Shown here: piece after piece, positions 41,484 to 62,340 of the stretch
Numbering within the stretch: position 1 is the first letter of the stretch
Layout of the letters: each line of letters opens with the position of its first letter
NCBI RefSeq assembly: GCF_963678835.1
Contig: NZ_OY787469.1
Span: forward strand, 1,364,001-1,428,000
DNA: 64,000 nt
Direction: 5' to 3'
DNA from: an uncultured Desulfuromonas sp.
GTDB lineage: Bacteria; Desulfobacterota; Desulfuromonadia; Desulfuromonadales; Desulfuromonadaceae
Notes under the pieces: model-generated
Database searches by the model: none
Seen by the model: only the letters and a program-made list of their open reading frames with translations
What the model was told of the DNA's origin: nothing
Made by a program: the position numbers and the translations under genes

Positions 41484-43555
41484 ACTGAAGATCAAGGTCA
41501 AAGTCAAGGTCGCCGGGTTTCGTCCCGGCAGCCGACATACTTTTGACTAGCCGCTCAAAAGTATGCAAAAACCAGCTTGAACACCTCCTGAACCTAAATC
41601 CACTGACAATGGGTCTGTTTCCGTGATGCTTCACAGATTCGGCTCGTCGCCCTTTAGGTCGACGAATCCTGCGACTCATCTCCTTTGGTGTAAAACGGTG
41701 ATAACAATCTTCAGTCGCGCTCTATCTCTGTTGTGGCACCAATAAAACGGGCGGGACGGTGCCCGCCCTTCAGTCGTGTGTTATTAAGCAGCCTAGCTCT
41801 CCCGTTCAGCAGCGCCGAACGAAGAGAACGGTCAGCGCGATGGTTGTCGGCAACCTGTTTGAGGACTGATGCCGACTGGGCGAGTTTTGCCAACATCGCG
41901 GTGTTAGTGAACGCAGGGAGGGAACCCGTAAGGGCGCAATGGGGTTGTTATTGATCAGATGAACGAGAGGTGTTGCGTGAGATTTTTTGCGTCAGCAAGG
42001 CAGAGGGAGGAGCTATAGTCGTTCTATGGCGACGACCGATAACGCGGCTGACGTGAAAAAGATCCGCAACAACACCGTGAAGGCTGATTGATGACAACCC
42101 CTTGGGAGTCGATTTTGCGGTACTTTTGTCGACGCAAAAGTGCCCCGACGAGCGGGCGCGGAAGCCCGCGTCACGTGGGTACCACCTTCGCGAACGGATG
42201 ATGTTCGCCAGAGCGATTCTTTTCGGATTACGAACCATTAAAGATCAAGATCAAAGTCAAGGTCGCCGGGATTCGTCCCGGCAGCCGACATCCTTTTGAC
42301 TGGCCGCTCAAAAGGATGCAAAAACCGGCTTGAACACCTCCTGAACCTGAATCCACCGACAATGGGTCTGTTTCCGTGATGCGTCACAGATTCGGCTCGC
42401 CGCCCTTTAGGTCGGCGAATCGCGTGCAATTCATCGTCTGTGGCGTAAAACGGTGATAACAATCTTAAGTCGCGCCCTATCTCAGGTGTGGTACCGATCA
42501 AACGGGCGGGACGGTGCCCGCCCTTGCGTCAGAGTGTAATTGAGCACCCAAGCCCTCCCGTTCAGCAGCACCGAACGCAATGAACGTCAGCGCAATGGTT
42601 GTCGGCAACCTGTTTGAGCGTCAGCGAGTTTTGCCGACATTGCGATGTAAGAGAATGGAGTGAGGGAACCCGATAGGGTGCAATGACGGGAGTCGATTTT
42701 GCGGTACTTTTGTCGACGCAAAAGTGCCCCGAAGTGCGGGCGCGGAAGCCCGCGTCATGTGGGTACCACCTTCGCGAACGGATGATGTTCGCCAGAGCGG
42801 TCAGTTCCGAGTGACGAACCACTGAAGAGCAAAGTCAAGGTCGCCGGGATTCGTCCCGGCAGCCGACATCCTTTTGACTGGCCGCTCAAAAGTATGCAAA
42901 AACCAGCTTGAACACCTCCTGACCCTCAGATTAACCGACAATGGGTCTGTTTCCGTAATGCTTCACAGATTCGGCTCGCCGCCCTTTAGGTCGACGAATC
43001 TTGCGACTCATCTCCTTTGGCGTAAAACCGTGATAACAATCTTCAGTCGCGTTCTATCTCTGGTGTGGCACCAATCAAACGGGCGGGACGGTGCCCGCCC
43101 TGCAGTGGTGTGTTATTAAGCAGCCCAGCCCTCCCGTTCAGCAGCACCGAACGCAATGAACGTCAGCGCAATGGTTGTCGGCAACCTGTTTGAGCGGTAG
43201 CGAGTTTTGCCGACATTGCGATGTAAGAGAATGGAGAGAGGGAACCCGATAGGGTGCAATGACGGGAGTCGATTTTGCGGTACTTTTGTCGACGCAAAAG
43301 TGCCCCGAAGTGCGGGCGCGGAAGCCCGCGTCACGTGGGTACCAACATCGCGAACGGATGATGCCTGCCAGCGCAATTCGCTCTGAATAATGAACCACTG
43401 AAGCTCAAGATCACAGTCAAGGTCGCCGGATTTCGTCCCGGCAGCCGATATCCTTTTGACTGAGCGTTCAAGAGGAAGCAAAAACAAGTTGAGCTTCTCC
43501 TGAACCTGGATCAACCGACAATGCGTTTGTTTCCAGCGTGCTTCACCGCTCCTAT
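41484..43555 (+). repeat. Tandem array 1 of ~577-bp hairpin-rich units (three full, one partial)
   Basis: Units begin with an ACTGAAGaTCAA-type block at 41484, 42237, 42821 and 43397. The last is cut after about 159 bases, right at the stop codon of the HD-GYP gene. Each full unit contains, in order: CCGGG/CCCGG stem; CATCCTTTTGA/TCAAAAGGATG stem; GATTCGG...CGAATC stem; GGGCGGG/CCCGCCC stem (41749-41768 in unit 1); a long CGCAATG...CATTGCG stem; an ACTTTTG/CAAAAGT stem; and GCGGGC/GCCCGC. Unit 1 is longer because of a 161-bp insertion (41941-42101). Short open frames inside (64-147 codons) repeat with the units and show no domain; they are taken as spurious. Confidence 0.9.
41941..42101. mobile_element. 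MITE-like 161-bp fold-back insertion inside repeat unit 1
   Basis: Present only in the first unit. Its ends, GGGGTTGTTATTGATCAG (41941-41958) and CTGATTGATGACAACCCC (42084-42101), are inverted repeats matching at 15 of 18 positions. The interior also folds back: GGTGTTG...GCGTCAGC faces GCTGACGT...CAACAACACC. No coding capacity and no clear target duplication is seen. Confidence 0.65.
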
Positions 43556-60258: not shown

Positions 60259-62340
60259 ACTGAAGGTCAAGGTCAAAGTCAAGGTCGCCGGGTTTCGTCC
60301 CGGCAGCCGACATCCTTTTGACTGGCCGCTCAAAAGTATGCAAAAACCAGCTTGGACACCTCCTGACCCTCAGATTAACCGACAATGCGTCTGTTTCCGT
60401 TACGCGTCACAGATCCGGCTCGCCGCCCTTTAGGTCGGCGAATCATGCAACGCATCATCTTTGGCGTAAAACGTTGATAACAATCTTAAGTCGCGCTCTA
60501 TCACTGGTGTGGCACCGATCAAACGGGCGGGACGGTGCCCGCCCTGCAGTCGTGTGGTATTGAGCAGCCCAGCCCTCCCGTTCAGCAGCACCGAACGCAA
60601 TGAACGTCAGCGCAATGGTTGTCGGCAACCTGTTTGAGCGGTAGCGAGTTTTGCCGACATTGCGATGTAAGAGAATGGAGAGAGGGAACCCGATAGGGTG
60701 CAATGACGGGAGTCGATTTTGCGGTACTTTTGTCGACGCAAAAGTGCCCCGACGTGCGGGCGCGGAAGCCCGCGTCATGTGGGTACCACCTTCGCGAACG
60801 GATGAAGTTCGCTGGTGCGATTCGTTTCAAGTTGCAAACCACTGAAGATCAAAGTCAATGTCGCCGGGTTTCGTCCCGGCAGCCGACATCCTTTTGACTG
60901 GCCGCTCAAAAGGATGCAAAAACCAGCTTGGACACCTCCTGACCCTCAGATTAACCGACAATGCGTCTGTTTCCGTTATGCGTCACAGATTCGGCTCGCC
61001 GCCCTTTAGATCGACGAATCCTGCAAATCATCGCCTGTGGCGTAAAACGTTGATAACAATCTTAAGTCGCGCTCTACCACTGGTGTGGCACCGATCAAAC
61101 GGGTGGGACGGTGTCCACCCTTGCGGCAGAGTGTCATTTAGCAGCCAAGCCCTCCCGTTCAGCAGCACCGAACGCAATGAACGTCAGCGCAATGGTTGTC
61201 GGCAACCTGTTTGAGCGGTAGCGAGTTTTGCCGACATTGCGATGTAAGAGAATGGAGAGAGGGAACCCGATAGGGTGCAATGACGGGAGTCGATTTTGCG
61301 GTACTTTTGTCGACGCAAAAGTGCCCCGACGTGCGGGAGCGGAAGCCCGCGTCATGTGGGTACCACCTTCGCGAACGGATGAAGTTCGCTGGTGCGATTC
61401 GTTTCAAGTTGCAAACCACTGAAGATCAAAGTCAATGTCGCCGGGTTTCGTCCCGGCAGCCGACATCCTTTTGACTGGCCGCTCAAAAGGATGCAAAAAC
61501 CAGCTTGGACACCTCCTGACCCTCAGATTAACCGACAATGCGTCTGTTTCCGTTACGCGTCACAGATCCGGCTCGCCGCCCTTTAGGTCGGCGAATCATG
61601 CAACGCATCATCTTTGGAGTAAAACGTTGATAACAATCTTAAGTCGCGCTCTATCACTGGTGTGGCACCGATCAAACGGGCGGGACGGTGCCCGCCCTGC
61701 AGTCGTGTGTTATTAAGCAGCCAAGCTCTCCCGTTCAGCAGCGCCGAACGAAGAGAACGGTCAGCGCGATGGTCGTCGGCAACCTGTTTGAGCGTCAGCG
61801 AGTTTTGCCGACATCGCGATGTAAGTGAACGCAGAGAGGGAACCCGTAAGGGCGCAATGACGGGAGTCGATTTTGCGCCACTTTTGTCGACGCAAAAGTG
61901 GCCCGACGTGCGGGCGCGGAAGCCCGCGTCATGTGGGTACCACCTTCGCGAACGGATGATGTTCGCTGGTGCGATTCGTTTCAAGTTGCAAACCACTGAA
62001 GATCAAAGTCAAGGTCGCCGGGTTTCGTCCCGGCAGCCGACATACTTTTGATTGGCCGCTCAAAAGGATGCAAAAACCAGCTGAACACCTCCTGACCCTC
62101 AGATTAACCGACACTGAGTCTGTTTCCGATGTGCGTTACGGATTCGGCTCGCCGCCCTTTAGGTCGGCGAATCGTGCAACTCATCTCCTGTGGCGTAAAA
62201 CGGTGATAACAATCTTAAGTCGCGCTTTATCTCTGGTGTGGCACCGATCAAACGGGCGGGACGGTGCCCGCCCTGCAGTCGTGTGTCATTGAGTAGCCAA
62301 GCTCTTCCGTTCAGCAGCGTCGAGTGTAGAGAGCGTTGTC
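60259..62340 (+). repeat. Tandem array 2 of ~577-bp hairpin-rich units (three full, one partial)
   Basis: Units begin at 60259, 60841, 61418 and 61995 (periods 582, 577 and 577). The last ends about 40 bases before the stop codon of the GGDEF-EAL gene. The block order is the same as in array 1. Units 2 and 3 of this array are very alike over their first half, implying recent unit duplication or conversion. Some stems carry paired changes: GGTACTTTTG/CAAAAGTGCC in unit 1 (60723-60748) against GCCACTTTTG/CAAAAGTGGC in unit 3 (61877-61902), and GGGCGGG/CCCGCCC against GGGTGGG/TCCACCC in unit 2 (61101-61120). Confidence 0.9.

Follow-up and report, generated by a model that had tools for sequence, protein, structure and literature searches.

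A 64,000-nucleotide stretch of the genome of an uncultured Desulfuromonas sp. (the window) holds two arrays of a tandem repeat whose hairpin stems vary from copy to copy while their arms stay paired. What kind of element carries these hairpins, and are the arms kept matched in RNA or in DNA? Compensatory changes are usually taken as proof of RNA structure. Here, the end module that we followed across the order covaries strongly yet has scarcely any G-T, and no excess of G-T over A-C, so that reading RNA from compensatory change could lead astray. Our preferred reading, to which we assign a probability of about one half, is that a compound palindromic DNA element of ~500 nt, which stands head to tail and is scattered between genes, carries the hairpins at its ends and as its internal stems, and that the pairing belongs to the DNA level and not to a structured RNA.

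Anatomy of the repeat and its end modules

The first homology searches resolved a core of ~350 nt and, between cores, a spacer in three sizes (~230, ~400 and ~30 nt), of which the ~400-nt form is the one that carries a 164-nt insertion at a fixed site. A covariance model (R1), built from 33 left-end matches comprising the hairpins H1 and H2, extends the element from H1 to H8, over 500 nt, so that each array reads as a head-to-tail tandem of an element of ~500 nt and a spacer of ~77 nt, with a period of ~577 nt (Table 1). Tandem Repeats Finder reported nothing on the arrays because its longest period was 500.

Both ends of the element are one two-hairpin module, inverted to each other. In plan, the module has a GC-rich hairpin whose loop is 6 nt long, followed by a second hairpin, whose inner stem is usually CTTTTG/CAAAAG, and by an A-rich GCAAAA tract. 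No right end of the genus was among the sequences from which R1 was built, and R1 matches right ends at full length on the opposite strand in both arrays and in many other arrays of the genome; by this model, H8-H7 appears to be related to H1-H2, in inverted orientation. Other genera of the order share the plan but not the sequences, with elements of 458-471 nt (genome G017) and 536-542 nt (G040). The inverted-end claim rests on a model of structure plus sequence, because an alignment of the left and right ends of one element by sequence only was not significant (score 22; shuffle mean 15.3, maximum 31).

Table 1. Positions of the arrays, elements and hairpins in the window, and of related features at other loci (locus handle given before the position)
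Feature	Position	Strand	Description
Array 1	41493..43552	+	R1 matches with filters off; core homology limits
Array 1, elements	41506-42175, 42259-42759, 42837-43335	+	first element with the 164-nt insertion
Array 1, right ends	42106-42175, 42690-42759, 43266-43335	-	full-length R1 matches, 22.6-24.5 bits
Array 1, truncated fourth element	43419-43491	+	left end
Insertion I	41942..42105	+	164 nt, partly palindromic; inverted ends GGGGTTGT.../...ACAACCCC
Array 2	60268..62337	+	R1 left ends and inverted right ends; core homology limits
Array 2, complete elements	60281-60779, 60857-61356, 61434-61933	+	
Array 2, right ends	60710-60779, 61287-61356, 61864-61933	-	full-length R1 matches, 27.3, 22.8 and 30.3 bits
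Array 2, fourth element	from 62011	+	without right end
Left end module, reference element	60857..60929	+	R1 94.8 bits; covariation
H1	60863-60880	+	left end module of reference element
H2	60887-60916	+	left end module of reference element; then GCAAAAACC
H3, internal hairpin	60988..61020	+	GATTCG..TCGCCG / CGGCGA..AATC type; pair 153/172 beyond tree null; 3' side of this copy reads TCGACGAATC
H4, internal G/C-rich hairpin	61101..61120	+	GGGTGGG / TCCACCC in this copy, elsewhere GGGCGGG / CCCGCCC
H5, internal long stem with extension	61188..61241	+	extension CGCAA / TTGCG
Right end module, reference element	61287..61356	-	full-length R1 match, 22.8 bits
H7, TCGACG-loop hairpin	61300-61325		right end module of reference element; then GCAAAA
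H8	61333-61350		right end module of reference element; innermost pair A/G in this copy
Spacer between elements	61357..61433	.	holds non-covarying H9
Hexamer-run left edges	L057 3001; L064 3001; L035 3001; L036 2984		
End modules on IMG/VR contigs	L322 14897-14964; L325 4847-4920; L323 11031-11091; L328 10367-10428		74.3, 38.7, 36.3 and 34.3 bits

Smaller sequence features accompany the element. Insertion I occupies the same fixed site within the element in many units genome-wide and looks like a second small mobile element. Hexamer runs of variable length, such as (AAGGTC)n and (CAAGAG)n, lie directly left of the first hairpin in several arrays, and in the tabulated spacer a short (GTCAAG)-like run precedes the next left end. 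Positions 60933-60942 of the core, and the same place in other units, read CACCTCCTGA, which includes an anti-Shine-Dalgarno-like ACCTCCT; in 113 copies, the conservation of CCTCCT is 98% or higher.

Covariation of the stems and types of base pair

All stems quoted in the first-pass annotation are present in the window. For the TCGACG-loop hairpin (H7), it had counted two pairs changed on both sides between the copies at 60723-60748 and 61877-61902; one pair is indeed changed on both sides (G60724-C60747 to C61878-G61901), and the neighbouring pair passes from a T.G wobble to C-G by a one-sided change. The T-A variant of H4 is as it described, with the GGGCGGG/CCCGCCC form in the other six of the seven window copies shown. 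The two versions of the H5 extension were also confirmed, and the 179 usable copies from four genomes include 82 CGCGA/TCGCG, 30 CGCAA/TTGCG and 21 CGTGA/TCACG. CATCC/GGATG does alternate with CATAC/GTATG, yet this pair is mismatched in three of seven well-preserved window copies (60311, 42867 and 62041), an eighth copy at 43449 being degenerate.

To place these changes in a larger set, we collected matches from four genomes of the genus (334 to the core, 300 to the spacer) and compared covariation with a tree null, in which the changes counted for each column were scattered randomly over a FastTree tree of 244 core and 146 spacer copies from four genomes. According to the first-pass annotation, a lack of covariation above a phylogenetic null in a larger alignment would speak against compensatory change; we found 9 of 68 pairs above the family-wise 95% limit (three in H2, one in H3, one in H4, three in H7 and one in H8). 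The nine include pairs that it had named. H4 260/273 (134 T-A and 102 C-G of 251 cells) gives the strongest single covariation, with G of 272 and a null maximum of 60.5; H7 110/133 occurs as 74 C-G, 70 G-C and 43 T-A; and H2 46/69 occurs as 133 C-G, 69 A-T and 42 C/T or A/G mismatches, with 46 of 248 copies non-Watson-Crick. Several pairs are present in two or more Watson-Crick forms within the genus, and many others are nearly invariant and therefore uninformative on covariation. H1 hardly varies within the genus, and H9 showed no covariation against the tree null.

The same pattern extends across the order. An alignment fitted to the structure model (A2), in which 57 chosen loci gave 153 matches and 150 aligned rows, contains 413 cells with both-sided changes, as compared with 121.6 in shuffles (none of 500 as high) and 5-44 with the partners slid. 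An earlier MAFFT alignment (A1) agrees, with 47 both-sided cells versus 15.2. Altogether, the tree null and the order-wide shuffles support the claim that the stems are kept paired through compensatory change.

Pair types bear on the molecule in which the pairing takes place. An RNA read from one strand tolerates G-U, which is equivalent to A-C on the other strand. For the end module, 27 of the 150 A2 rows (duplicates and rows of fewer than 60 letters) were dropped, and the 2034 cells of the 123 distinct modules left comprise 1990 Watson-Crick (97.8%), 7 G-T, 20 A-C and 17 other, with nine of the 20 A-C cells at one pair, which could be an alignment-register effect; the other families alone show 7 G-T versus 15 A-C of 1465 cells, with 1432 Watson-Crick. 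As a control, we used 30 fetched c-di-GMP-I riboswitch loci of the same order, a subset of the matches, with the structure taken from RNAalifold, which favours G-U; their 540 cells comprise 492 Watson-Crick, 39 G-T, 7 A-C and 2 other, or 22 G-T versus 7 A-C without the most wobble-rich pair (17 of the 39 G-T). The G-T:A-C proportion of the end module differs from that of the control (Fisher, 7e-7), also without the control's most wobble-rich pair (4e-4) and for the other families only (4e-5). Over all nine stems in the four same-genus genomes, 120 tree-counted departures lead to G-T and 137 to A-C, figures that are approximate because the copies recombine.

The first-pass annotation had leaned towards RNA on the strength of tolerated T.G pairs. 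For the family as a whole, these counts do not bear that out. The wobble itself is real in two stems: H7 leans to + strand G-T (25 versus 5 events, mostly at one pair, with 73 T-G of 207 cells), and the H5 extension does so within the genus (28 versus 10 cells). Both would be expected if the array encoded a structured RNA on the + strand, as would the conserved loops and the strong covariation. We nevertheless consider such an RNA very unlikely, given the scarcity of G-T relative to A-C in the end module and their reversed proportion in the RNA control, the opposite lean of H3 (31 G-T versus 59 A-C events, 32 of the 59 at one pair), the lack of an excess of promoter-like sites over shuffles and the lack of any Rfam match for array 2 at E 1. 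Neither strand is consistently favoured by the RNAalifold consensus (core -38 on + and -48 on -; spacer -59 on + and -39 on -), Rfam gave no match over the whole window at gathering scores, and no tRNA was found. Among the marks of a structured RNA, covariation above the null is present, and an excess of G-U over A-C on one strand (for the family as a whole) and a match to a curated family are absent.

A purely mutational account needs no function that depends on the hairpins: as replication proceeds, switches of template from one arm of a quasi-palindrome to the other, a mechanism described in PMC8794818, would homogenise the stems. Near-strict Watson-Crick pairing without a G-T excess is the expected residue of such arm copying, and both-sided Watson-Crick changes are common between nearest copies (both-sided/one-sided: H2 30/72, H3 23/122, H4 22/27, H7 30/36, H8 10/8). 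However, H9 and H1 both have 6-bp stems and are 77% and 98% Watson-Crick, respectively, with 2 both-sided versus 96 one-sided changes between nearest copies of H9, so that correction would need selectivity. In addition, loop inversion, which PMC8794818 presents as one (minority) outcome of template switching, is absent here. None of 1154 loops from five hairpins (266+251+207+208+222) is exactly inverted, four (one H1, three H2) are nearer the inverted form than the consensus, and the loops are fixed in sequence and polarity. The inversion between arms that the first-pass annotation had entertained as an alternative is accordingly unsupported; arm-to-arm template correction without loop inversion may still operate. 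The module is, moreover, carried by 124 of the 136 genomes searched in the order, its inner stem mostly conserved and its loops constant in polarity. We regard a purely mutational origin of the matching as tentative and rather unlikely.

In favour of pairing at the DNA level we count the covariation, the inverted end modules and the scarcity of G-T in the end module across the order, together with the avoidance of divergent junctions and the copy-number differences at orthologous junctions described below. Against it, H7 and the H5 extension lean to G-T, as RNA would; a fixed loop sequence and polarity is not needed by a purely strand-symmetric DNA function; A2 was fitted to the model, the control structure came from a method that favours G-U, and nine A-C cells fall at one pair; and the non-Watson-Crick copies at H2 46/69 make up nearly a fifth of its total. 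We read the whole as pairing on DNA inverted repeats, a reading that H7 and H5 may not fit. The pairing would be maintained as single-stranded DNA hairpins or cruciforms, with the arms kept matched by arm-to-arm template switching, by selection for recognition of the ends by a putative mobilising enzyme, or by both. Taken together, these repeats are probably widespread tandem DNA elements with hairpin-forming ends and near-perfect Watson-Crick inverted repeats.

Distribution, genomic placement and turnover

With R1 at E 1e-4, the 124 genomes of the order with an end module compare with 10 of 395 genomes drawn from the phylum, of which nine (the window's genome included) belong to the same order and the tenth has 6% contamination; the surveys scored at most 36 (order) or 12 (phylum) candidates per genome under strict filters, so that outside the order a weak or diverged module may have escaped them. 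The window's genome, which consists of two contigs of 3.7 and 0.82 Mb and belongs to the same genus as genome G001, has at least 150 end-module matches to R1. An exact 22-mer of H2 occurs on nine contigs of the MAG Desulfuromonas sp. BM513 and in no other record of the collection searched, which may omit records of the window's own genome. A plasmid or phage origin was rejected, since the 577-nt unit matched nothing among 72,556 plasmid and 50,697 phage records, nor did the left end among plasmids. A pattern scan of viral contigs (12 contigs) gave one strong end module and four at 34-39 bits, two of these identical in sequence. A possible similarity to Pseudomonas intergenic repeats was likewise dropped, since the motif gave four partial matches in plasmids (E 0.4), none convincing.

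In four genomes, 162 places hold an element (one further place at a stretch edge excluded; genes called by a home-made combination of ORFs and codon score): 86 lie between convergent genes, 71 between co-directional genes and 5 between divergent genes. These places are a sample, the window's genome having further ones and 27 loci having been taken from genome G008. Because convergent and divergent junctions alternate along a chromosome, equal counts of the two are expected, and the elements avoid divergent junctions; we relied on their ratio because the background from the surrounding context is biased against convergent gaps, the neighbours of which cannot themselves be convergent. Other genera sampled gave 10 convergent, 23 co-directional and 5 divergent places (38 non-edge places), plus 9 at edges.

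The predominance of convergent places raises the possibility that the hairpins work in RNA made from either strand, as structures at the 3' ends of convergent transcripts. Both strands would then have to fold, G-T and A-C would both be disfavoured, and the symmetric suppression of the two fits. Nevertheless, terminator-like sites were not above shuffles (1 versus 2.7 and 2 versus 3.0), and the end hairpins are followed by A-rich and not T-rich sequence; on the first of these grounds we also rejected an array of intrinsic terminators (GC hairpin plus T run). Furthermore, 71 of the 162 places are co-directional, and in other genera 23 of 38 are, with pairing equally strict there (1432/1465). We keep RNA hairpins on both strands as a rival reading, though an improbable one.

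Orthologous junctions differ in copy number. The array 2 junction lies between convergent genes for an ABC ATPase and a GGDEF-EAL protein and has four elements in the window, roughly one in G008 and only a piece around H5 in genome G002; no element lies there in G001, where no more than about 55 nt separate the genes, or in G007, where the genes meet. The array 1 junction has two cores and a fragment in G008, remnants in G002 and about 85 nt without an element in G001. These differences indicate turnover, which fits unequal recombination added to gain or loss; under the DNA-level reading, arrays would grow and shrink by unequal recombination after an element reaches a site. At both G002 junctions examined (L279 and L142), the piece around H5 is kept, as if left behind or pre-existing, and L142 has a further core fragment.

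The order-wide occurrence of the module, an inner stem that is largely conserved and loops of fixed polarity speak for a function of some kind or for active spread. Neither the function nor the mobiliser of the element was found, and caution is called for because no mobiliser turned up and no insertion boundary or target-site duplication was defined. A bolder version of the DNA-level reading, which we hold to be improbable, is that the element persists throughout the order because a putative enzyme or nucleoid factor recognises its hairpin ends in their folded DNA form, and that it is kept close to the 3' ends of genes, where it might serve at convergent junctions as a cruciform or a sink for supercoils; it would be a new class of bacterial DNA element, defined by structure and fluid in sequence.

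Comparison with known systems

The family resembles REP sequences and BIMEs in being extragenic, high-copy, palindromic and modular, and in lying mainly at convergent or co-directional junctions, the placement described for REPs (PMC3733652). The many extragenic palindromic copies (at least 150) and the low share of divergent places (5/162) fit a REP family, and a unit of 20-40 bp, the size given for REPs in PMC3733652, does not: the end modules are 73 nt with two hairpins, the elements are 451-542 nt, and the arrays run head to tail. G-T pairing is frequent in REP stems according to work cited by PMC3733652, whereas it is rare in the end module here. As for the REP tag GTAG/CGTC, inspection by eye found GTAG at none of the stem feet of H1, H2 and H8, a GGTAC inside the H7 stem and a CGTC beside H8.

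Inverted, hairpin-bearing ends around a core, with no gene of its own seen, also recall REPINs, which are far shorter than the element here. REPINs are mobilised by RAYT transposases (PMC3116915). Most genomes of the order (115 of 134) have Y1_Tnp (PF01797) genes, and none of 10 fetched loci, which cover 9 of the 20 hits in the window's genome, had an end module near the Y1_Tnp gene; on the loci covered, RAYT mobilisation gains no support, and it may still apply. The R0/R2-type repeats of Pseudomonas fluorescens, proposed MITEs of 89-110 bp with inverted repeats of 24-43 bp, are likewise intergenic, with inverted repeats flanking a core, and differ in that no two-hairpin ends such as those seen here are described in the part of PMC2718517 that bears on them.

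Multicopy nucleotide sequences, intergenic and in some cases palindromic, are reported for the related bacteria Geobacter metallireducens, G. bemidjiensis and Pelobacter carbinolicus (PMC2700814, PMC2996986, PMC3543383), and the present family may be among them, the alignments being in the supplements of those papers. In the passages covered here, the 2025 REP survey (PMC12306157) does not name Desulfuromonas or Geobacter. The template-switch-maintained hairpins of PMC8794818 share compensatory stem changes without a G-U path, and differ in that the account there concerns RNA genes and in that loop inversion, a possible mark, is not seen here.

The family is therefore best filed as a new BIME/REPIN-like compound palindromic repeat with its arms matched at the DNA level. 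It is also a natural record of how the arms of palindromes stay matched, and a simple way to discriminate between RNA and DNA pairing is to set the G-T count against the A-C count and to do likewise for an RNA control taken from the same genomes.
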